DNA of 64,000 nucleotides, taken from an uncultured Carboxylicivirga sp. Lineage in GTDB: Bacteria; Bacteroidota; Bacteroidia; Bacteroidales; Marinilabiliaceae. The DNA is taken from positions 992,001 through 1,056,000 of the forward strand of contig CANNEA010000002.1 of NCBI GenBank assembly GCA_947503525.1. Reading direction: 5' to 3'. The notes beneath the pieces are model-generated. The model was not told the origin of the DNA and made no database searches. It saw nothing but the letters and a program-made list of their open reading frames with translations. The first letter of the stretch is position 1; every line of letters starts with the position of its first letter. The position numbers were made by a program, and so were the translations under genes. Shown here piece by piece: positions 13,593 to 23,482 of the stretch.

Positions 13593-14522
13593 TTAATGAC
13601 TATCAATTCCTTCAATCATTCGTATACAATGCATAAAGGTTTTAAATATCTCATCAGCATATTCTTTCACGGCTTTTGGACTTCCCGGGATAGCGTAAAT
13701 TAAAGTTTTTGATGCAAGGCCGGCAACGCTTCTACTTAGCAAGGCACCCGGTTTACCTTGTCCATACTTCATACGAATCATTTCCATGATACCCGGAATT
13801 TCTTTATCGATTATTTTACGAACTGCCTCTGGAGTAATATCCTTTGGACCGATTCCTGTTCCTCCGGTAATAAATATCATGTCAATGCCATCGCTAATAC
13901 TACTTATCAATGTTGTTTCCAGCATTCGGCTATCATCCGGTAAAATTAGACTTGAAATCTCAACAGGATATTGTTGTTTTTCAAAATAGTCAGCGCAAAG
14001 TTGATTCAGGAGTGGGCCACTTTTATCATGATATACCCCGCTATAAGCTCTGTCGCTCATGGTTATAATCTGGCATTTAAAAGTACGGGGAAAGTGCATA
14101 AAAGAATCACCTTGCTGCAATTCTCCGCCTTTCAACACTCTTGCAAATATTCCCTCTTTTGGCATTACACAGTTGCCAACTTCTTTGAAAATATTACAAT
14201 TATCGCCATGACATTTTTTGCCAATCTGTGTTACCTCCAGTTCAGTATTTGACCCAACCAGCCTATCAAAAGGACGTAGCTTATGTAGTTCAATACCTTT
14301 GGTTGTTATGTTTTCAGCAAACTCACCAAAGTTGATTTTTCGGCCTGCTTCTTTTTCAAATTTATCAATGCTCTCCTGAGCCAGTAAACTTACTTGGCGA
14401 TGCCATGGTCCACTATGGGCATCACCTGATACACCATTGACATCAAGGATGATTTGATTCTGAGGCTTTTTGATGGTGCCCTTTTTCTCGGAAATATTTA
14501 CGGCTAAAACATCTATCTTCAT
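13593..14522 (-). CDS. MOSC domain - MogA/MoaB fusion protein (molybdopterin adenylyltransferase)
   Basis: The ATG at 14522 gives the natural MOSC start M-K-I-D-V-L-A-V-N-I-S; a frame extension to 14564 is unlikely. The N-terminal MOSC domain (about residues 1-145) has 'GVSGDAHSGPWHRQVSLLAQ' and the Cys of G-K-K-C-H, which in MOSC proteins is linked to sulfur or Moco handling. The C-terminal part (about 150-308) is a MogA/MoaB domain, with 'TMSDRAYSGVYHDKSGPLL', 'FITGGTGIGPKDITPEAV' and 'AIPGSPKAVKEY'; this domain adenylylates molybdopterin before MoeA inserts molybdate. Last gene of the operon, 148 bp after moaC. Confidence 0.9.
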   Translation of the reverse strand: MKIDVLAVNISEKKGTIKKPQNQIILDVNGVSGDAHSGPWHRQVSLLAQESIDKFEKEAGRKINFGEFAENITTKGIELHKLRPFDRLVGSNTELEVTQIGKKCHGDNCNIFKEVGNCVMPKEGIFARVLKGGELQQGDSFMHFPRTFKCQIITMSDRAYSGVYHDKSGPLLNQLCADYFEKQQYPVEISSLILPDDSRMLETTLISSISDGIDMIFITGGTGIGPKDITPEAVRKIIDKEIPGIMEMIRMKYGQGKPGALLSRSVAGLASKTLIYAIPGSPKAVKEYADEIFKTFMHCIRMIEGIDSH

Positions 14523-14670
14523 AATTTTAAGTATCAAGTACAAAGTATCAAGATTGACCGACAAGATTTAGAATATTTGTCCTACCCAAGTATGGTTAAT
14601 TATCCATTTATGAATGAATGTAGGACAGTTTTTGAGTTAACTTTTCTAGTCAGTGATACTGTTTGTTTTA

Positions 14671-15120
14671 TTATTCTTTTGTTTTACTATCCAGTTTTAT
14701 ATCTGACATCACCATATGTTTATCAACAGCCTTACACATATCATAAACTGTTAATAGGGCTACGTTAACGGCAGTTAAAGCTTCCATCTCAACTCCGGTT
14801 TCGCCTTTGCATTTTACTTCTGAACTAGCCCTTACGCCATTGTCCAGAAGAGTGCATTTGACAGCCACCTTTGAGAGAAGAAGTGTATGACATAGAGGAA
14901 TTAATTCATAAGTACGCTTAGCGGCTTGAATGCCGGCTATTTCGGCAACCGTTAGCACATCACCTTTTTTCAGGTTATTCTCCTTAATCTGTTTAATGGT
15001 TTCAACATTAAGACTGATGAATCCACTGGCCTTAGCCGTTCTTTTCTGAATGGGCTTATCACCAACATCTACCATGTTGGCCTTACCATGTTCATCGATA
15101 TGTGATAGTTTATTTGCCAT
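14671..15120 (-). CDS. moaC: Cyclic pyranopterin monophosphate synthase MoaC
   Basis: 149 residues, near the usual 150-160. Family motifs are clear: 'HIDEHGKANMVDVGDK' at the N-terminus, 'AAKRTYELIPLCHTLLLSKV' in the middle and 'TGVEMEALTAVNVALLTVYD' then M-C-K-A-V-D-K at the active site. MoaC converts the MoaA product (3',8-cyclo-7,8-dihydro-GTP) into cPMP, the first stable Moco precursor. It starts 2 bp after the moaA stop codon, so the two are coupled. Confidence 0.96.
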   Translation of the reverse strand: MANKLSHIDEHGKANMVDVGDKPIQKRTAKASGFISLNVETIKQIKENNLKKGDVLTVAEIAGIQAAKRTYELIPLCHTLLLSKVAVKCTLLDNGVRASSEVKCKGETGVEMEALTAVNVALLTVYDMCKAVDKHMVMSDIKLDSKTKE

Positions 15121-15122
15121 GC

Positions 15123-15923
15123 TTATCCTCCTATTTGATTAAACCGACCCGACTTGTTTCGCGTACCTTCTTTAGGTTTGTTACTGATGGCTTTATCAAA
15201 TGCTCCATCATGTCCATGTTCTTTTATATTGAAACCTGCTTCATTAAAAAGACAAGGTTTAAATGATCCATCTGCGGTTAATCGAAGTCTGTTGCAGGTT
15301 TCGCATTTGCCGCCTTCACCACCTTCTACTTTCGAGAATGAACCGTCTTCAAGATTCATTTGATGAATGTAACGGATGGATAAATCATTCTCATCACAGA
15401 ATTTTTTTACCTCCAGGGCATCAGGTTCATCAGCTGAGTTACGCACAACGCAGTTAATTTTAACTGGATTTAGTCCAGCGCGTTTGGCCGCCTCAATGCC
15501 GTAAAATACCTTATTAATATCTCCACCTCGTGTAATGTAGCTGAACTTTTCAGGATCCATTGTATCCAGACTAATATTTACCCGATGAAGTCCGTTTTGC
15601 TTTAGAGCTTCTGCAAATTGATCTAATAAAATTCCATTGGTGGTCATGGCTAAATCTTCAACCCCTGGTATGCTGGCAATTAATCGAACTAAATCCACTA
15701 TACCTTTTCTCACAAGCGGTTCTCCACCTGTCAAGCGTATCTTTGTTATTCCTTTTTCAACCCCTAGCTTTACCAAGGTTTCTATCTCCTCAAAACTTAG
15801 AATATCGTCATGAGCCATCATGTCAATGCCTTCTTCAGGCATGCAGTATCGGCATCGAAGGTTACAACGATCGGTTACCGAAATGCGCAAATAATTAATA
15901 TGACGCTTAAAAGGGTCTAACAT
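15123..15923 (-). CDS. moaA: GTP 3',8-cyclase MoaA, compact form
   Basis: The ATG at 15923 gives M-L-D-P-F-K-R-H-I-N-Y-L-R-I-S, the normal MoaA start, and overlaps the moeA end by 17 bp. The radical SAM cluster motif is C-N-L-R-C-R-Y-C; the second cluster motif is C-E-T-C-N-R-L-R-L-T followed by P-C-L-F, and the protein ends in the family's Gly-Gly. Length is only about 266 residues versus about 330 usual: some 45-50 residues are missing between 'SIRYIHQM' and the second cluster. All catalytic features I can name are kept, so I call it functional but compact. Confidence 0.92.
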   Translation of the reverse strand: MLDPFKRHINYLRISVTDRCNLRCRYCMPEEGIDMMAHDDILSFEEIETLVKLGVEKGITKIRLTGGEPLVRKGIVDLVRLIASIPGVEDLAMTTNGILLDQFAEALKQNGLHRVNISLDTMDPEKFSYITRGGDINKVFYGIEAAKRAGLNPVKINCVVRNSADEPDALEVKKFCDENDLSIRYIHQMNLEDGSFSKVEGGEGGKCETCNRLRLTADGSFKPCLFNEAGFNIKEHGHDGAFDKAISNKPKEGTRNKSGRFNQIGG

Positions 15924-17106
15924 ATACTTTGTCTCCTTTTTTAAGATCATTTACACCAATTGGAATTTCTAGTAAGGCATTGGCTATGGAAATAGCATGC
16001 ATATGTGCTGAGCCATGATAGCTGAGGCTTTCAACTTTGCCATCATCATTTATTCTTACCGGAAATAATTCAAAACGATCATTACGTTTTCTGTAATGAT
16101 CACAGGCCATAATAGATTTAATCCGTAGTGCTTTGAATGCTGAATTATTAAAAGCACTTAGTATCCACCGCCCGCATTCTTCAAATTGAATAAGAGTTGA
16201 TACCGGATTTCCGGGCAAGCCAAGGATATATTTATCATCCTTCGATGCAAATACAGTGTGTTTGCCTGGTTTTGCACTTATCTTTGAAAAGTGAATTTCC
16301 AATCCCAGTTCTTCAATGATGGCAGGGACATAGTCATAATCACCCACAGAAACACCACCTGTCAGAACCAATAAATCATTGGCTTTAAATGCTTTTTCTA
16401 TATTGCCTTTTAATGAGTCATAGTCGTCCGGGCTAACGCCATAGTTAGAGGCATCAATATTTAATTCATTTAATCGGGCTTTAAGTTGGTGGCCGTTACT
16501 ATTGTAAATCTGGCCTTTATCCAAATCAATTCCTGGCTCAATCAATTCGCTTCCAGTGGAGATAATTCCAACTTTTGGCAGATTATAAACTTCTACCTGA
16601 GTAATTCCTGATGAAGCTAAGAGTGCTATCTGTGAAGATTTTAAAGGAGTACCCGCTTTGATTAATAGATCTCCAGGTTTCAAATCATCACCTTTAGGAC
16701 TAATGTTGGATTTGGTGAACTCTTTTGTAAATAAGATTTGATCATCGCTTGCTATGGTGTGCTCTATCATAATGACTGTGTCGGCTCCATCCGGAACCGG
16801 AGCGCCTGTCATGATTCGATAACAATGCTCAGCCTCTAATTTATCCTCTATTTGAACCCCTGCAGCAATTGTTGCAACTACTTTAAACGGACCTGGCAGA
16901 TCCTCCTTTCGGCAAGCAAATCCATCCATCGCTGAACGGTTAAATGGCGGAATATATACTGTAGAATATACATTGGAAGCCAGAGTCCGACCATTTGCAT
17001 GAGACAGATCAATAGTTTCTGATTTTAAAGCTTTAACCATACTTTCTACAATGGTTTTAGCTTCTTCAACAGTTATCAGTTTATTGTCCAATTGCTCTTG
17101 TCCCAT
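15907..17106 (-). CDS. moeA: Molybdopterin molybdenumtransferase MoeA
   Basis: 399 residues, the usual length for MoeA. Seen in order: the N-terminal 'SVEEA'-like start (I-T-V-E-E-A), 'IPPFNRSAMDGFA', 'RIMTGAPVPDGADTVIM' and, in the MogA-like core, G-I-I-S-T-G-S-E-L, 'VLTGGVSVGDYDYVPAII' and 'ILGLPGNPVSTLIQFEE'. MoeA inserts molybdate into adenylylated molybdopterin, which the MogA domain of the last operon gene would supply. It overlaps the MobB-like gene by 31 bp and moaA by 17 bp, so the cluster is tightly translationally coupled. Confidence 0.96.
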   Translation of the reverse strand: MGQEQLDNKLITVEEAKTIVESMVKALKSETIDLSHANGRTLASNVYSTVYIPPFNRSAMDGFACRKEDLPGPFKVVATIAAGVQIEDKLEAEHCYRIMTGAPVPDGADTVIMIEHTIASDDQILFTKEFTKSNISPKGDDLKPGDLLIKAGTPLKSSQIALLASSGITQVEVYNLPKVGIISTGSELIEPGIDLDKGQIYNSNGHQLKARLNELNIDASNYGVSPDDYDSLKGNIEKAFKANDLLVLTGGVSVGDYDYVPAIIEELGLEIHFSKISAKPGKHTVFASKDDKYILGLPGNPVSTLIQFEECGRWILSAFNNSAFKALRIKSIMACDHYRKRNDRFELFPVRINDDGKVESLSYHGSAHMHAISIANALLEIPIGVNDLKKGDKVYVRPF

Positions 17107-17615
17107 TTTATCGATTTAGGAAGGTTCGTAATTCTGGAGTGCTCTGAATGGAGTTCAAGGTATTCAAAATCCCAGATGCAGGTCTTTTCATTTAGTTTAC
17201 TATCTTGAACAAAAAAAGCTAGTCCGGGAATAATAAACTGGCCTATAGCGGCAGATTCACAAATTACAATTTGATCTTCTTTTATATGACCATTCAGGTA
17301 ACTCAGTATTTCCGGAATATATTGATCCGATTTTAGTTGGGCATAATAGGAATGGCTTGCTCCTGCCGCTAACATTCGTCCGCTATCCTTTAATGAATGT
17401 CTGTTGGTTTCTTTTCCCAGCATCCAGTTATCCTGGTCGCCATCAATCCATTTTATATCAGCCGAAAGTTTATGGATATGAGATGCGATCTTTAAACTAA
17501 TAACATCATATTGAAAGGCTAATTGTTGAATGCAATATTCGGCCAACCATGTTTTGCCCACATTACGACCATTACCTGCAATAATTAACCAGTTATTTAA
17601 TTTCGATCTCACCAT
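17076..17615 (-). CDS. MobB-like P-loop GTPase, Moco maturation
   Basis: 179 residues. The P-loop is G-N-G-R-N-V-G-K-T (about residues 14-22). A 'KDSGRMLAAGASHSYY' segment aligns with the K-D-T-x-R-H-x-x-A-G-A motif of MobB, the GTP-binding helper of MobA in Moco dinucleotide formation. Later motifs diverge from classical MobB, so the name is by similarity and context. First gene of the Moco operon; its ATG lies directly behind the riboswitch and hairpin described at 17627-17794. Confidence 0.75.
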   Translation of the reverse strand: MVRSKLNNWLIIAGNGRNVGKTWLAEYCIQQLAFQYDVISLKIASHIHKLSADIKWIDGDQDNWMLGKETNRHSLKDSGRMLAAGASHSYYAQLKSDQYIPEILSYLNGHIKEDQIVICESAAIGQFIIPGLAFFVQDSKLNEKTCIWDFEYLELHSEHSRITNLPKSIKWDKSNWTIN

Positions 17616-17862: not shown

Positions 17863-18483
17863 TTAACAACCACCAGCTACCCTTTTCTTTTTAGGCCGTT
17901 TTTTAATGGTTGGTTTTGGTGCCGAAGGTGCCCCTTCGGTTAATGAATTTAAGTTACCTCCACCAAGGGCAGCACTTGCGCCTTTACGAAAATCATATTT
18001 AGCAAATTCATCATCAGGACTTGTTGATGCTGGTTTGCTGGGATTCATAATGGTTTCGGCGTAATAATTTAATCCACCCTGCAGTACATAGTTGTTAATG
18101 TATCCCAACTGACGTGTGATCATCCAGGCCTCATTAGCAGTGGTTGAACCATTTGAATAAAAAACATTCATCTTCACATCCTGATTAAGATAATCTTCGT
18201 TTTCAACAGAAAGAATATCAGCTAAAGGAATGTTGATTGCTCCCGGTAAATGGTATTTATCGTAGCTATCCTTGTCGCGAACATCAATCAATTGTAAGGA
18301 CGGATCTTTTTGAATCAACATGTCTGCAATCTCGTCGGTAGATACAAACTGAATGCCCTCTTTCACCTCTTCCAGCATTTGTGGAGCGGTTAATTTATAT
18401 GGTCGTGTTGTGTTTTCTGGAACAGCAGCAATAATAATTCCCAAAGGAATGATTGCTAAAGCCAGTTTTAATCGCATATTCAT
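17863..18483 (-). CDS. Exported rhodanese-like protein with C-terminal Gly-Gly-Cys arm
   Basis: The ATG at 18483 (M-N-M-R-L-K-L-A-L-A) gives a short basic start and one hydrophobic export or anchor segment; a longer frame reaches 18516. A rhodanese fold follows ('LQLIDVRDKDSYDKYHLPGA', 'VLQGGLNYY'), but the active-site loop reads F-Y-S-N-G-S-T-T: the catalytic Cys is Ser. After the domain come about 50 flexible residues rich in Pro and Lys, ending K-K-K-R-V-A-G-G-C-stop. That terminal Cys is the only Cys in the protein. It is the last gene of the molybdoenzyme/YeeE operon. I infer a sulfane-sulfur carrier in the periplasm; catalysis by the rhodanese domain itself is unlikely. Confidence 0.85.
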   Translation of the reverse strand: MNMRLKLALAIIPLGIIIAAVPENTTRPYKLTAPQMLEEVKEGIQFVSTDEIADMLIQKDPSLQLIDVRDKDSYDKYHLPGAINIPLADILSVENEDYLNQDVKMNVFYSNGSTTANEAWMITRQLGYINNYVLQGGLNYYAETIMNPSKPASTSPDDEFAKYDFRKGASAALGGGNLNSLTEGAPSAPKPTIKKRPKKKRVAGGC

Positions 18484-18539
18484 ATCGTAGATATTAGCTG
18501 CCAGTTTTATAATCACTAGCTGGTTAATATATATAGTAT

Positions 18540-19130
18540 TTAATATTCTTCTCTAGGGAATTTTCGTTCAGCCCACTCACCAATAAAAAACATAGCCAAA
18601 GCTGCCAATATTAATATCAAGCCAAAAGTTCCTCTAGACATTCCTAACAATTCATTAATTGTTGGGGTTCCCATATTTTCCGCATAGAACAGTTCTTCCC
18701 AAAGTGGAAATCCTTCGGTAAAAATAACTACTCCAAGAATCAAGCCACCAATAAAAACCAAGGCATCAAGTTTACCAATAGATACGGCACAAAATGCTGT
18801 GCCCGGGCAGAAGCCGCCTAAAATAAATCCGACTCCCATTATTGCCCCACCAACTATGGCAGACCATAGAAATGTTGGGTTGATGTAGATTAAACTTAAA
18901 TCAATCCAGCCAAATAAACTGAAGAACAATAAGCCTAACATAGCCACTATGGCAGCCGTAAAAAACACTTTTAATACTGTAGTGTCGTAGCCGTAAAACA
19001 TGCCAGCTAACTTTCGTGATGATGAAAATCCGCTGCGCTCAAGTACAAATCCAAATCCAATGCCGATGATGAATGCCATCAAAAGATTGGTGTTAGCTGA
19101 AATATATTCGTATACAATTAAAGGTCCCAT
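18540..19130 (-). CDS. YeeE/YedE family membrane protein, second half-size subunit
   Basis: 196 residues, about half of full-length YeeE/YedE. Four or five hydrophobic helices are visible. Family motifs: F-V-L-E-R-S-G-F-S-S-S-R near residue 30-39 and G-G-F-C-P-G-T-A-F-C at 106-114, with Cys108 at the position where YeeE proteins relay thiosulfate by a conserved Cys. The Ser after R-S-G-F is often Cys in relatives. It lies 13 bp after the first half-size gene, and the two probably assemble into one transporter for a sulfur compound. Confidence 0.9.
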   Translation of the reverse strand: MGPLIVYEYISANTNLLMAFIIGIGFGFVLERSGFSSSRKLAGMFYGYDTTVLKVFFTAAIVAMLGLLFFSLFGWIDLSLIYINPTFLWSAIVGGAIMGVGFILGGFCPGTAFCAVSIGKLDALVFIGGLILGVVIFTEGFPLWEELFYAENMGTPTINELLGMSRGTFGLILILAALAMFFIGEWAERKFPREEY

Positions 19131-19143
19131 ATCTGTCTCTTTA

Positions 19144-19668
19144 TTAAATCCATAATTTACGTGCGAAATAAGCTAAGGCGAAGGCTGTTCCGAAAATAAA
19201 AGCCATGGTGATAAATCCACCAAGCGATAAAACAGCCATTCCGCTTAAGGCTGACCCACTGGTACATCCTCTTCCAAGCTGCGAGCCAAATCCAAAGAAT
19301 ATTCCTCCGATTGCAGCAAATAGTAAGCGTATTTTGCTCGTTACTTTTGGGCTGTGTTCCACCTTAAAATTCAAACGGCCGGCAAAAGCTCCTGATATAA
19401 AGCCGCCGACTAATACCCCTAACATTTCCCAAACTAACCAGTCTTTCAAAGGACCGCCAGCATGTGATTCCTTGTAATTTTTATAAAAATCTGTTGTTTC
19501 AACATGAGAAGGAGAAATTGTTTCCACACTAGCTACTACAGCACTTTTAACAGCGCCACTGGCGCCTAGTCCTCTTCCGGAGAAATAAAATGCAGTGAGT
19601 AGCACTAAACCAAGTAGTACACCTCCTAAGTAGGGATTCATGTACTTTTTACTTCGATCTTCGTTCAT
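19144..19668 (-). CDS. YeeE/YedE family membrane protein, first half-size subunit
   Basis: 174 residues with an N-terminal hydrophobic helix (about 14-32), a periplasmic-type loop, and two to three further helices. The hallmark motif is Q-L-G-R-G-C-T-S-G-S-A-L-S-G (130-143) with Cys135. Family members import thiosulfate or related sulfur species through stacked conserved Cys residues. Pairing with the adjacent half-size gene, and the downstream sulfur-carrier-like protein, makes sulfur transport the likely role. 74 bp after the NrfD gene. Confidence 0.9.
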   Translation of the reverse strand: MNEDRSKKYMNPYLGGVLLGLVLLTAFYFSGRGLGASGAVKSAVVASVETISPSHVETTDFYKNYKESHAGGPLKDWLVWEMLGVLVGGFISGAFAGRLNFKVEHSPKVTSKIRLLFAAIGGIFFGFGSQLGRGCTSGSALSGMAVLSLGGFITMAFIFGTAFALAYFARKLWI

Positions 19669-19741: not shown

Positions 19742-20683
19742 TTAGTACAGCCATCGGCTCATTTGACCAGCATAAGCCATAATGAATCGGAATAATAATC
19801 CACCCATAAGAACCAAGGCCGGCGCAACCATATATGGTACCTTTTTATTTCGCATTTCCATTACTTCCAGGGCCGCCGGAATAACCAAGCCTAAGCCGAC
19901 CACAAATACCCAAAATGGAGCAGTGAAATCTCCGCCAAGAAACATTTCCGATGCATCAATCTGAACCTGTGAACTGGCCCTGAAACCCATGAACATATGA
20001 ACAATAAGGAAAAGCTCAATGGCAATTAAAAGTAAATCGATTTGAGCAAAAGTATGTCTTTCCTTTTTTGATTTGGATAAAATAATTATGGCTGCAGCAC
20101 CTGTTGACATTCCGGATACAAGGAACAATGGTCCAAGTATTGACGTGTTCCATAAAGGACGAGCATTAAATGCCGATAGCAATATACCGGTATAGATACC
20201 CAGGATAACCGATAAAATCATCATGGCCCATGCAATAGGCTTCTGATAATTCCTTAACCATTTGATGGCATTTTTTACAAAATCAAATTTCCAATCCCAT
20301 TTAGGAAAAAGTGATTCTATATTAAGAGCAGCCCATATACCGGAGAGAGGCATGATGAACATTAAAGTCCATGCACCCCAACTCATGGGAGATTCTAACT
20401 TAATAGCGGTATACAAACGCCAGAAATAAAGTTTGTGTTTCAGATCAAGAAACAGGAATACCAAACCAAGCACAATTAATACGGGGGTAATAATTGGAGC
20501 TAGTTTTACGGCTGTAGGATATTCTTCGCTTTTCCCTTTTATAAAAAAGTATCCGGCAAAAAATAATATACCTGCAGCTAAACCACCCAAAAACAGGTAG
20601 GCAGGAATATGCCATTCCCAGATTTGTAATTGCGGATCAATATGTGGATTCATTCGTCCGCTAACGATTAATTCTTCTCTCAT
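19742..20683 (-). CDS. NrfD/PsrC-type membrane subunit (quinone-interacting)
   Basis: 313 residues with eight or more predicted membrane helices, the usual size for NrfD/PsrC. Features include the N-terminal 'WEWHIPAYLFLGGLAAGILF' helix and a 'SPMSWGAWTLMFIMPLSGIW' segment, both typical of this family. The protein exchanges electrons between menaquinone and the ferredoxin subunit. It begins 19 bp after the ferredoxin gene and completes a three-subunit Psr-type complex. The direction (quinol oxidation or quinone reduction) cannot be read from the sequence. Confidence 0.93.
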   Translation of the reverse strand: MREELIVSGRMNPHIDPQLQIWEWHIPAYLFLGGLAAGILFFAGYFFIKGKSEEYPTAVKLAPIITPVLIVLGLVFLFLDLKHKLYFWRLYTAIKLESPMSWGAWTLMFIMPLSGIWAALNIESLFPKWDWKFDFVKNAIKWLRNYQKPIAWAMMILSVILGIYTGILLSAFNARPLWNTSILGPLFLVSGMSTGAAAIIILSKSKKERHTFAQIDLLLIAIELFLIVHMFMGFRASSQVQIDASEMFLGGDFTAPFWVFVVGLGLVIPAALEVMEMRNKKVPYMVAPALVLMGGLLFRFIMAYAGQMSRWLY

Positions 20684-20701: not shown

Positions 20702-21235
20702 TTATATCAAAAAGTATAATTGAGGTTTAGTTCCTGCTTCAGGGATCAAGGTCTTGTATTTACGTTTCTTGATCACCTTGCTTACATCTGAATTTGGATC
20801 GTCCAAATCACCAAAATACATACACTTGGTTGGACATACTGCCACACAGGCCGGTTGCTGTCCTTTTTGTACCCGATGAATGCAAAATGTGCATTTGTCT
20901 ACATAACCTTTTGGATGTGTATAGCGCGCATCGTATGGGCAAGAAGCAATACAAGCTCCACAACCAATACATTTATTTTTTGTGACCATTACGATGCCAC
21001 CATCGCTGTAATGACTGGCTCCCGTCGGGCAGCATCTTACACATGGTGAATTTTCACAGTGGTTGCATCGTTCCGATCGATGTTCTAACTCTAATTGTGG
21101 ATAGGTGCCATCAGTTACTTCTACAATCCAATCGCGACAGTATCCTATAGGTACATCATTTTCGGTCTGACAAGCTACCACACAGTCACTGCAGCCCACA
21201 CATTTTTTCGTATCTACGGCCATTGCATATCTCAT
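20702..21235 (-). CDS. Four-[4Fe-4S] ferredoxin subunit of a Psr-type complex
   Basis: 177 residues with four cysteine groups: C-V-G-C-S-D-C (12-18), C-N-H-C-x4-C-V-R-C-C (57-69), C-I-G-C-G-A-C-I-A-S-C (89-99) and C-T-F-C with C-V-A-V-C (115-134). This is the DmsB/PsrB/PhsB pattern with four [4Fe-4S] clusters that wire the membrane subunit to the molybdenum site. There is no signal peptide; such subunits ride with the Tat-exported catalytic subunit. 12 bp after the catalytic gene. Confidence 0.95.
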   Translation of the reverse strand: MRYAMAVDTKKCVGCSDCVVACQTENDVPIGYCRDWIVEVTDGTYPQLELEHRSERCNHCENSPCVRCCPTGASHYSDGGIVMVTKNKCIGCGACIASCPYDARYTHPKGYVDKCTFCIHRVQKGQQPACVAVCPTKCMYFGDLDDPNSDVSKVIKKRKYKTLIPEAGTKPQLYFLI

Positions 21236-21247
21236 AGCTGTCTCTCC

Positions 21248-23482
21248 TTATGCTTTATTAAATCTAAATGTGATAAAATTACCTCTCATTCCGGTTCCTC
21301 CCATAATCGGATCCATCATTATATTGGTGATCAATTCAGTATCACTGGCTCCACGTCCATAAGCACGTGTCAGTTGTTTTTTAGAATGACCAAAACCGTG
21401 TACCATATATACTGAGTCCCAACGTATGCGTTCTGTAACTCTTACTTTAATTGGGAAAGTCGAAACCACATTATCTTGATTTTGAAGATAAACTTCCTGT
21501 CCATTTTTCAGATCCCATTCTTTAGCCACCTTAGGGTTAACCCAAACTGTATTCTCATCCATTAAATCCGTCAAATTAGGATTGTTGGCTGTTCGGGAAA
21601 AAGTATGCATAGGGGCTCGTCCATATATCAGGCGATAGTAGCCTGCCGGAGGTTCGGGATGAGCAGTGTATTTGGGCATAGGATCAAAACCATACTCTTC
21701 TAAAGACGTAGAATACAATTCAATTTTTCCTGTGTTAGTGTTGAATTCAATTTCTTCTCCATCCTTATAGTATAAATCATCATAAGGACGATCCATTTTC
21801 TTTACACCAATGCGCTGCATTTCTTCCAAAGATGAACCTACTTTTTTAAGCTGATAATCCAATTCTTCTTCAATGGAATCAAAAGGGAAATAATCACCTT
21901 TGCCCAATCTGTCTGCTAAATTCTTAGCCATCCACCACGCTGGTTTTGAATCGTATTTAGGTGTCATGGCCGGCATTCGTAAGGAAATGGTTGGCTCACG
22001 ATGCTGCGTTACACGTAAAGAATCATATCGCTCGAGATAAGTACATTCGGGTAATATTACATCTGCATAGCCTGTAATCTCCATAGGCATGGTATCAACC
22101 ACCACCATTAAATCAAGAGCGTTGATTGCTTCCAGGGTATTAGGTCTGTTTGGCAATGTTTCAATGAGATTAGTGCCATTTACAATCCAGGCTTTAATGC
22201 CACAATCTGTTGTAGCTGATGGAACAGTTGCATCACATACGCCATTGGCTAAAGCTAAATCGGCCAATTCATATTTTCCACCCATAGCATCTCGCCAGGT
22301 TCTGGCAGGTTTTGGATATGGTGGGTGCGGAACTCCCGGAACTTTAGCTTTATCCGGAATGTAAAATCCACCTCTTCGTCCCCATGAGCCTAATAAGGCA
22401 TTTAAAATGGCTACAGCTCTTAGTCGCTGTGTGTCATCTCCATACCAGGTAACATGTCTTCCCGGATGAATTATCGTAGCCGGTGAGGCATATGACATTT
22501 CACGGGCGGTTTCACGAATAACCTGCGGTTTAATTGTAGTTATTCCATAAGCCCATTCAGGAGTCATGTGCTTAACATGTGCTTTTAGCTGTTCAAAACC
22601 AAAAGTATACTGTTCAACGTATTTTTTATCATATCGCTCTTCATAGATCAATACATGAATCCATGCCATAAGAAGCGCTAAATCGGTACTTGGTTTTATG
22701 GGCAGCCAGTATTTTGATTTTCCTGCTGCTGTTGAGAAACGAGGGTCAACAGTTATAATGGTGGCACCTTTGTCAATGGCATCCGACATTTCCTGGACAT
22801 GACCATTGTGCATGTTTTCACCTATGTGAGAACCGATTAATACCATGCATTTGGTGTCTCTGATGTCAGTAGGTTCTGGAGAACTCAACCCATCTCCAAA
22901 AGTAGCGATGAATCCCACTTCACGAGGGCCTCTGCACTGGGCGTACGAAGGGGCAGTAATGTTTTGTGAGCCGAGTGCCTTTAGTAGATTGCCGAAATAA
23001 GTTCCGCCAGATCCATGTGTGAAAAGTGCGATGCACTCCGGGCCGTGCTCTTCAATAACCTTTTCGAGCTTGAGTTGTATGTAGTCAAAAGCTTCATCCC
23101 ACGAAGCTTTTTTAAACGATTGTGTTCCGTCGGCATTTTTTATGCGAATCAAAGGATGTTTAAGGCGGTCCTCATCGAAGTACATCCCGACGCCTCCTGT
23201 GCCACGGGGGCAGAAGCGTCCATTACTGTTAGGATCGTCATCATTTCCAATGATTTTCTGAATCTGCCCATTTGCATTTTTGTATGTCCAACCCGCACAT
23301 TTCCAAAAGCAGACTTCACAATAGGTTGGCGTCCGTTCCAAATCCTTTGGCATCATCCAGGGGCCTTTAGGATTTTCCAGAATCGACTGTTGACCTTGGG
23401 CCAATAAATACTTTGAACCTACAATGGTACCTGCTGTGCCAAGTGTCGAAATTTTAATAAAATCTCTTCTACTGTTACCCAT
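21248..23482 (-). CDS. Molybdopterin oxidoreductase, polysulfide/thiosulfate reductase-like catalytic subunit
   Basis: 744 residues. Tat signal: S-R-R-D-F-I-K near the N-terminus, then a hydrophobic stretch ending L-L-A-Q. The N-terminal [4Fe-4S] ligands are C55, C58, C62 and C91. The Mo ligand is probably Cys183 in S-Y-A-Q-C-R-G-P-R-E, at the place where PsrA/PhsA have their Cys. The C-terminal Moco-binding domain is present ('YGRAPMHTFSRTANNP'). The family also contains tetrathionate and arsenate reductases; neighbouring sulfur transporters and rhodanese favour a sulfur substrate. First gene of the operon; it needs the Moco made by the adjacent riboswitch-linked operon. Confidence 0.93.
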   Translation of the reverse strand: MGNSRRDFIKISTLGTAGTIVGSKYLLAQGQQSILENPKGPWMMPKDLERTPTYCEVCFWKCAGWTYKNANGQIQKIIGNDDDPNSNGRFCPRGTGGVGMYFDEDRLKHPLIRIKNADGTQSFKKASWDEAFDYIQLKLEKVIEEHGPECIALFTHGSGGTYFGNLLKALGSQNITAPSYAQCRGPREVGFIATFGDGLSSPEPTDIRDTKCMVLIGSHIGENMHNGHVQEMSDAIDKGATIITVDPRFSTAAGKSKYWLPIKPSTDLALLMAWIHVLIYEERYDKKYVEQYTFGFEQLKAHVKHMTPEWAYGITTIKPQVIRETAREMSYASPATIIHPGRHVTWYGDDTQRLRAVAILNALLGSWGRRGGFYIPDKAKVPGVPHPPYPKPARTWRDAMGGKYELADLALANGVCDATVPSATTDCGIKAWIVNGTNLIETLPNRPNTLEAINALDLMVVVDTMPMEITGYADVILPECTYLERYDSLRVTQHREPTISLRMPAMTPKYDSKPAWWMAKNLADRLGKGDYFPFDSIEEELDYQLKKVGSSLEEMQRIGVKKMDRPYDDLYYKDGEEIEFNTNTGKIELYSTSLEEYGFDPMPKYTAHPEPPAGYYRLIYGRAPMHTFSRTANNPNLTDLMDENTVWVNPKVAKEWDLKNGQEVYLQNQDNVVSTFPIKVRVTERIRWDSVYMVHGFGHSKKQLTRAYGRGASDTELITNIMMDPIMGGTGMRGNFITFRFNKA

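Follow-up and report, generated by a model that had tools for sequence, protein, structure and literature searches.

Among the described systems closest to the locus analysed here, SoxY carries sulfur in the periplasm on a terminal Gly-Gly-Cys arm. In thiosulfate uptake by YeeE-YeeD (TsuA-TsuB), a single-cysteine accessory protein is bound or fused to YeeE and a cysteine relay is formed, which in S. thermophila runs inward through C293, C91 and C22 of YeeE to a fourth cysteine, C17 of YeeD (PMC11073785; here and below, published systems are described from the available parts of the papers cited). For SoxYZ, delivery to the YeeE-like protein SoxT has been suggested. The authors of that study regarded sulfur import into the cytoplasm as poorly understood and offered models in their discussion: transfer from the SoxY cysteine to SoxT was considered conceivable, and direct persulfide hopping was doubted because the cysteines of YeeE-type channels lie about 7 Å apart (PMC11582611). 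The same paper describes PmpAB, in which YeeE is likewise encoded by two half-size genes, with one cysteine each. The selenoprotein TsoB, a rhodanese/DsbD-like protein, likewise pairs a rhodanese with a membrane protein, and SaoC, a Cys-Cys-COOH protein, is likewise a transport protein with C-terminal cysteines, of which the arm described below has one (PMC13188914). The same gene set as at our locus, with DUF395 and a rhodanese-related sulfurtransferase downstream of psrABC, is listed for Ca. Thermonerobacter thiotrophicus; the comparison is by description, and the available text of that listing makes no mention of a missing cysteine or an arm (PMC6338057). How periplasmic sulfur reaches YeeE-type channels is the question that such an arm, as a conserved partner, would address.

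The operon studied lies on the reverse strand of the window, the whole stretch of 64,000 nucleotides that was analysed. It runs from a PhsA-like gene through NrfC-like and NrfD-like genes and two genes for halves of a YeeE protein to a rhodanese gene, which is last. Its features, in positions of the window, are:

17863 to 18483, reverse strand: rhodanese-fold protein with a terminal-cysteine arm, predicted to be membrane-anchored; 206 aa, open from ATG to TAA
17866 to 17874, reverse strand: terminal Gly204-Gly205-Cys206, with C206 the sole cysteine of the protein
17866 to 18036, reverse strand: basic Lys/Pro/Gly C-terminal arm, residues 150-206
18058 to 18339, reverse strand: rhodanese domain, residues 49-142 (PF00581, E=5.7e-15)
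18145 to 18162, reverse strand: vacated active loop FYSNGS, with Ser110 at the catalytic cysteine position
18424 to 18477, reverse strand: putative N-terminal hydrophobic anchor, residues ~3-20 (hydropathy, and a charge count over the family)
18540 to 19130, reverse strand: 196-aa YeeE half, which matches PF04143 over the model's N-terminal half
19144 to 19668, reverse strand: 174-aa YeeE half, which matches PF04143 over the model's C-terminal half
19742 to 20683, reverse strand: NrfD-like membrane subunit (PF03916, E=1.1e-47)
20702 to 21235, reverse strand: NrfC-like 4Fe-4S subunit (TIGR03149, E=3.1e-51, below its cut-off)
21248 to 23482, reverse strand: PhsA-like molybdopterin oxidoreductase (best NCBIfam model NF012032 PhsA, E=5.6e-135)

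The name PhsA-like expresses resemblance only, the protein scoring 451 bits against the NF012032 cut-off of 694. Both YeeE halves scored above the PF04143 cut-off of 27 (61.4 and 79.1 bits), as did the arm protein with the rhodanese model (56.1 bits against the curated PF00581 cut-off of 22.2). An alternative GTG start at 18516 would extend the arm protein to 217 aa.

An initial annotation of this DNA had described the window protein as a rhodanese whose active-site cysteine is replaced by serine and whose single cysteine ends a flexible Gly-Gly-Cys arm, and both features were confirmed. The catalytic loop cysteine that is required for sulfurtransferase activity was not found in the window protein, its place in FYSNGS being taken by Ser110, and C206 is the only cysteine. 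The arm, which extends for about 57 residues after the domain to a KKKRVAGGC end, has a high content of K, R, P, G and A. AlphaFold2 prediction with the window protein and 35 relatives gave a poor fold (mean pLDDT 50.9, pTM 0.37).

Homologues of the rhodanese were searched for in 60 relatives, 46 of which gave a match, and in 395 Bacteroidota genomes, 152 of which matched at E <= 1e-10; many of the latter matches are ordinary rhodaneses by score and extent. Loci L001-L119, to which the 395-genome search contributed its better matches, contain 128 distinct rhodanese frames, including 100 that are complete, single-domain or fused, and at most 1.4 kb from YeeE. Three layouts were seen: the rhodanese as a separate gene after the YeeE halves, its fusion to the 196-aa half, and arm genes in tandem. 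As the initial annotation had anticipated for homologues beside YeeE, the terminal cysteine is kept, standing last or second last in 98 of the 100 YeeE-linked rhodaneses, and the loop cysteine is absent from 96 of the 98 complete arm proteins. The contrary cases it had named occur as rare exceptions: L081 and L088 have both the loop and the terminal cysteine, the second paralogue of L044 (171 aa) lacks the arm while the first beside it ends in GGCE, and L119 is an interrupted frame without a terminal cysteine. Larger or multi-domain complete rhodaneses near YeeE bear the arm in one case out of five (L032). When no YeeE was nearby in the locus, 6 of 18 complete rhodaneses ended in cysteine; four of these lie on contig pieces or at locus edges with YeeE out of view (L046, L047 and two in L055), and of the other two, one belongs to the L033 operon as its third arm protein and one is a lipoprotein of L080.

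The close relatives that carry names are Carboxylicivirga species, which makes that genus the very likely source of the window. The best 80 named loci of 381 close relatives all end in GGC or GGCS, and a sequencing or reading artefact was rejected because of this conservation. Some of these genes are the same as in the genomes searched above, so that the combined set of 179 arm proteins (the 98 YeeE-linked proteins, the L032 lipoprotein and these 80) contains some overlap. Counted from the first residue of the domain through to the C-terminus, 148 of the 179 have exactly one cysteine; the tail is GGC in 157, and one residue follows the cysteine in 27. The Gly-Gly is absent and the cysteine kept in the remaining 22 (17 EGC, 3 MGC, 1 DGC and 1 FQC). 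When 37 diverse non-fused arm proteins were aligned (down to 20% identity to the window protein), the only invariant residues besides C206 were D67 and R69; in an alignment of 24 arm-bearing sequences including fusions, the other invariants were D67, R69, P86, G204 and G205. As the 37 rows were chosen among arm-bearing sequences, they show how little else is kept and not the frequency of the cysteine. The dead rhodanese with a terminal-cysteine arm is a conserved design.

A census was also taken from the YeeE side, with the 196-aa half and not the rhodanese as the query. At E <= 1e-6, 80 of the 395 Bacteroidota genomes matched, and the 68 places at E <= 1.3e-34 were taken from this search. A rhodanese with cysteine last or second last was present at 67 of them, fused to the YeeE half at 36 and directly downstream at 31; the sole miss is an interrupted ORF (G353). 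The count includes L085, taken from an internal Met (94 aa) of a full open frame of 223 aa, and G194, which ends in NEGC and was missed by the tail-bearing profile at E <= 1e-10. By comparison, cysteine stood in the last two residues of 9 of 1229 background ORFs, and was last in 1 of 1229 (non-overlapping non-rhodanese ORFs of at least 150 aa from wide loci, with rhodanese-model hits left out). Chance occurrence of the terminal cysteine was rejected on this comparison. The 16 loci around weaker YeeE hits (L234-L249), which are mostly PmpAB-like, differ from the split-YeeE operons described here in having no arm-type rhodanese. Their YeeE halves are ~136 aa in most loci and 180-230 aa in the first four, and 7 of the 16 have instead a rhodanese-containing protein of ~470 aa, of the metallo-beta-lactamase type by eye. 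Of the 13 rhodanese proteins in the genome of the window, 4 have cysteine last or second last. They are the window protein, a YeeE fusion, a lipoprotein of an octahaem operon and a 130-aa protein ending in SCGC. The last of these (L268:1447-1839) has several cysteines around its loop, and no link to YeeE was seen.

The enzymes beside YeeE and the arm varied. An octahaem cytochrome and/or a thiosulfate-reductase-like cytochrome b was found at 36 of the 68 YeeE places (35 with the fused layout, 1 with the separate one). The octahaem cytochrome is of the tetrathionate reductase family, and the window genome's own copy matches TIGR04315 at E=4e-175. PhsA and/or NrfD occurred at 19 places (18 separate, 1 fused) and an SseA-like tandem rhodanese at 5; the remaining 8 loci did not extend far enough to show the enzyme. 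Since the enzyme changes across the 68 places, YeeE and the arm are the pair that stays. The initial annotation had the arm presenting sulfur to the neighbouring YeeE transporter or to the molybdoenzyme; the partnership with YeeE in that proposal is supported by the census and its fusions, whereas the molybdoenzyme is less supported as a receiver, being replaced elsewhere. As an obligate partner it was rejected, because other operons have octahaem cytochromes or a catalytic rhodanese. The layout was also seen on a plasmid of Gemmatirosa (Gemmatimonadota, L250), where an SseA-like gene lies upstream of both YeeE halves and a dead rhodanese that ends in RRRGC. A plasmid search with the rhodanese gave seven records, of which this one was read and the other six are known by a match over about residues 56-145; a search with the YeeE half gave four, the layout being read in Gemmatirosa.

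Two further loci bear on the pairing of arms with enzymes. A 461-aa YeeE-arm fusion (L092:3291-4676) stands beside PhsA and not beside an octahaem cytochrome, so the fusion may have arisen more than once. On the same contig as the window, L080:10220-10729 encodes a 169-aa lipoprotein rhodanese with the canonical loop CKKGKR, in which the loop cysteine is kept, and the tail HDDGGGC. An octahaem cytochrome and a cytochrome b lie beside it, a tandem-rhodanese lipoprotein is next, and no YeeE gene was present within the 20 kb read.

To place the window's YeeE cysteines, the halves were aligned to PDB 6leo/8j4c; the alignment is weak but consistent (E ~4e-4). C22 corresponds to S36 and C91 to C108 of the 196-aa half, and C293 to C135 of the 174-aa half. 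Among distinct strong-hit YeeE frames, some of which are edge-cut copies of one gene, cysteine fills the first relay position in 162 of 162 and the second relay position in 166 of 166. At the third, which faces YeeD, 0 of 163 have cysteine; Ser, Gly, Thr or Ala stands there instead, and three further rows are gapped. The weaker YeeE hits, armless and in most cases PmpAB-like, likewise lack this cysteine (0 of 12), so that its loss characterises split YeeE and not the presence of an arm. The same count weakens the view of the arm as a substitute for a cysteine lost only in arm-bearing YeeE proteins. In these respects the locus is unlike the YeeE-YeeD system: YeeE is split and without the third cysteine, and a search of 14 genomes found no TusA match in that of the window. 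With no TusA found, it is likewise unlike the YTD gene cluster, which consists of yeeE, tusA and dsrE-like genes (PMC13047784). Five of the 14 genomes have a TusA domain. Three of these five belong to the 8 other congeners in the search, and there the domain lies in frames of ~840 aa, so that TusA is not absent throughout. The window genome contains only two YeeE pairs, each with an arm.

The comparison of tandem arms covered eight operons in which two arm genes are complete, L044 with its armless second paralogue being left out. Once the final 40 residues are set aside, first and second arm proteins share 17-35% identity, whereas their last 12 residues are 80% identical within the same operon. 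Over the last 12 residues, identity was 82% for 12 within-operon pairs against 42% for 141 between-genome pairs, and when tails were re-paired, 1 of 20000 trials reached the observed value. G040 is an outlier, with 42% in the tail. The shared Gly run of G045 is written in different codons (nucleotide identity 0.56-0.69), which fits selection acting on the tail, and the last 36 bases are identical in G355, which fits a recent conversion. Two of the eight operons have a third arm protein, a tandem-rhodanese lipoprotein with a loop cysteine in at least one domain. These lipoproteins (L032:6303-7445 and L033:2903-4042) are ~380 aa long, and their tails are nearly the same as those of the two dead arm proteins of the operon. 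The sharing of tails between paralogues suggests interchangeable arms for one shared dock.

A hydrophobic segment precedes the domain in 178 of the 179 arm proteins, and judged by the charge balance around it, the domain would be periplasmic in 146 and on the opposite side in 13, with 20 ties; very short N-termini were seen in most of the 10 opposite cases shown. By these topology rules, the domain of the arm protein is likely periplasmic. Lipoprotein signals, identified by eye on paralogues, agree with the periplasmic side, and so does the RRDFIK start of the PhsA-like protein, which we take to be a Tat-type motif.

Taken with the YeeE partnership, these features are best read as a periplasmic, membrane-anchored sulfur carrier dedicated to the split YeeE, a mirror of the cytoplasmic YeeD, to which we assign a probability slightly better than even (about 0.52). 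The rhodanese fold, with its catalytic cysteine lost, would serve as a scaffold, and the flexible basic tail would present a single cysteine. C206 might be loaded with sulfur, as a persulfide or S-thiosulfonate, from periplasmic chemistry performed by the operon's own enzyme, whether a PhsA-like reductase, an octahaem cytochrome or a catalytic rhodanese. It would then exchange sulfur with the periplasm-side relay cysteine of YeeE, C135 (~ C293), from which the sulfur would pass to C108 (~ C91). Import is the preferred direction solely on the ground that the YeeE proteins characterised so far are importers. Release of thiosulfate or polysulfide at the channel mouth would avoid the problem posed by the ~7 Å spacing of the channel cysteines, which argues against direct persulfide hopping (PMC11582611). 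A bolder form of the carrier reading, possible but on balance doubtful, is that of a covalent feeding arm, in which the terminal cysteine would thread sulfur into the periplasmic mouth of YeeE as an extra relay cysteine, in a form of group translocation. Transport would thereby be coupled to interchangeable periplasmic sulfur enzymes, and the several arms of an operon, including one borne by a catalytic tandem rhodanese, could take turns at the same dock.

The arm might instead serve the periplasmic redox enzyme and carry its substrate, in the way of SoxYZ or DsrC, with the enzyme reducing or forming the sulfur adduct on C206 and YeeE merely moving a related anion. The PhsA-like protein, the octahaem cytochrome of the tetrathionate reductase family and the SseA-like protein are all plausibly sulfur-acting, and the arm-type rhodanese of L080 belongs to an octahaem operon without YeeE within 20 kb. 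This account nevertheless has to contend with the constancy of the YeeE-arm pair across changing enzyme types, and with fusions that join the arm to the YeeE half at 36 of 68 places, in a search that covered fusions on the YeeE side; we regard it as unlikely. It is quite improbable that C206 acts as a redox switch or tether, forming a disulfide, either to YeeE or to a second arm, that gates the channel or holds the complex together while no sulfur is carried. A single-cysteine arm, a basic linker suited to docking and the common tails of tandem paralogues would all fit such a role, but it leaves the repeated link with sulfur enzymes unexplained. Moreover, the best 80 named loci of the 381 relatives have one arm gene each, and in this closest clade arm-to-arm disulfides would therefore need homodimers.

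Carriers of the QbsE/ThiS type bear a thiocarboxylate and have an invariant Gly-Gly before the cleavage site. The tail could accordingly be imagined as a signal for processing or modification, the Gly-Gly-Cys becoming a thiocarboxylate carrier after removal of the cysteine or serving as a tag for sorting or lipidation. Such a signal would suit the 157 of 179 tails that are GGC and the 27 with one residue after the cysteine. We consider it highly improbable: the 22 tails without Gly-Gly still have the cysteine, the protein is predicted to be periplasmic and thus away from ATP-dependent activation, and no sorting-domain model matched. The thiocarboxylate and sorting-tag candidates were rejected on the variable Gly-Gly and the lack of a sorting model match.

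The arm protein, which we prefer to read as a periplasmic carrier dedicated to YeeE, falls outside the carrier families with which it was compared. YeeD is cytoplasmic and of the TusA fold, whereas the partner here is rhodanese-fold and predicted to be periplasmic, with its cysteine on a terminal arm; no Pfam match to the YeeD/TusA domain with its CPxP cysteine was obtained for the arm protein. It differs from SoxY in fold, has no SoxY Pfam match, and its arm ends at the cysteine or one residue past it. The Gly-rich GGC end may work in the manner of the SoxY arm, a resemblance in mode of action and not in membership. Pfam and NCBIfam scans gave no match to DsrC/TusE, and the protein has one cysteine only. 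The TsoB model NF045694 scored 29.5 bits against a cut-off of 805, which is no membership, and none of the Sao models gave a match. In the family libraries used, the arm protein is named by its rhodanese domain only, and the carrier reading would give it a likely role. With the partner present at 67 of 68 places of one YeeE group and about half of these fused, the proposal comes down to one testable atom, the last or second-last thiol.

The initial annotation had further stated that it knew of no described family with this design. No description of the arm was found in the literature searched, which comprised titles and the beginnings of abstracts with most subscription papers outside its scope, or in the available text of the cable-bacteria (PMC13047784) and selenoprotein (PMC13188914) papers. 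The operon layout itself is already in print (PMC6338057).

Other observations were made around these loci. Five consecutive rhodanese-domain proteins of 346-375 aa are encoded at L116:4046-9658; they have mostly Ser at the aligned loop residue and no arms, and the locus has no YeeE. In the window, molybdenum-cofactor genes follow the operon on the same strand (13593-17615), with MoeA identified by Pfam and the others by eye. Among them, 15123-15950 encodes a MoaA-like protein (by eye) of 275 aa, presumably some 50 residues shorter than usual. The 179-aa protein encoded at 17076-17615, between the arm gene and MoeA, had no Pfam match at E 0.001; it has an N-terminal GNGRNVGKT loop and by eye is MobB-like.
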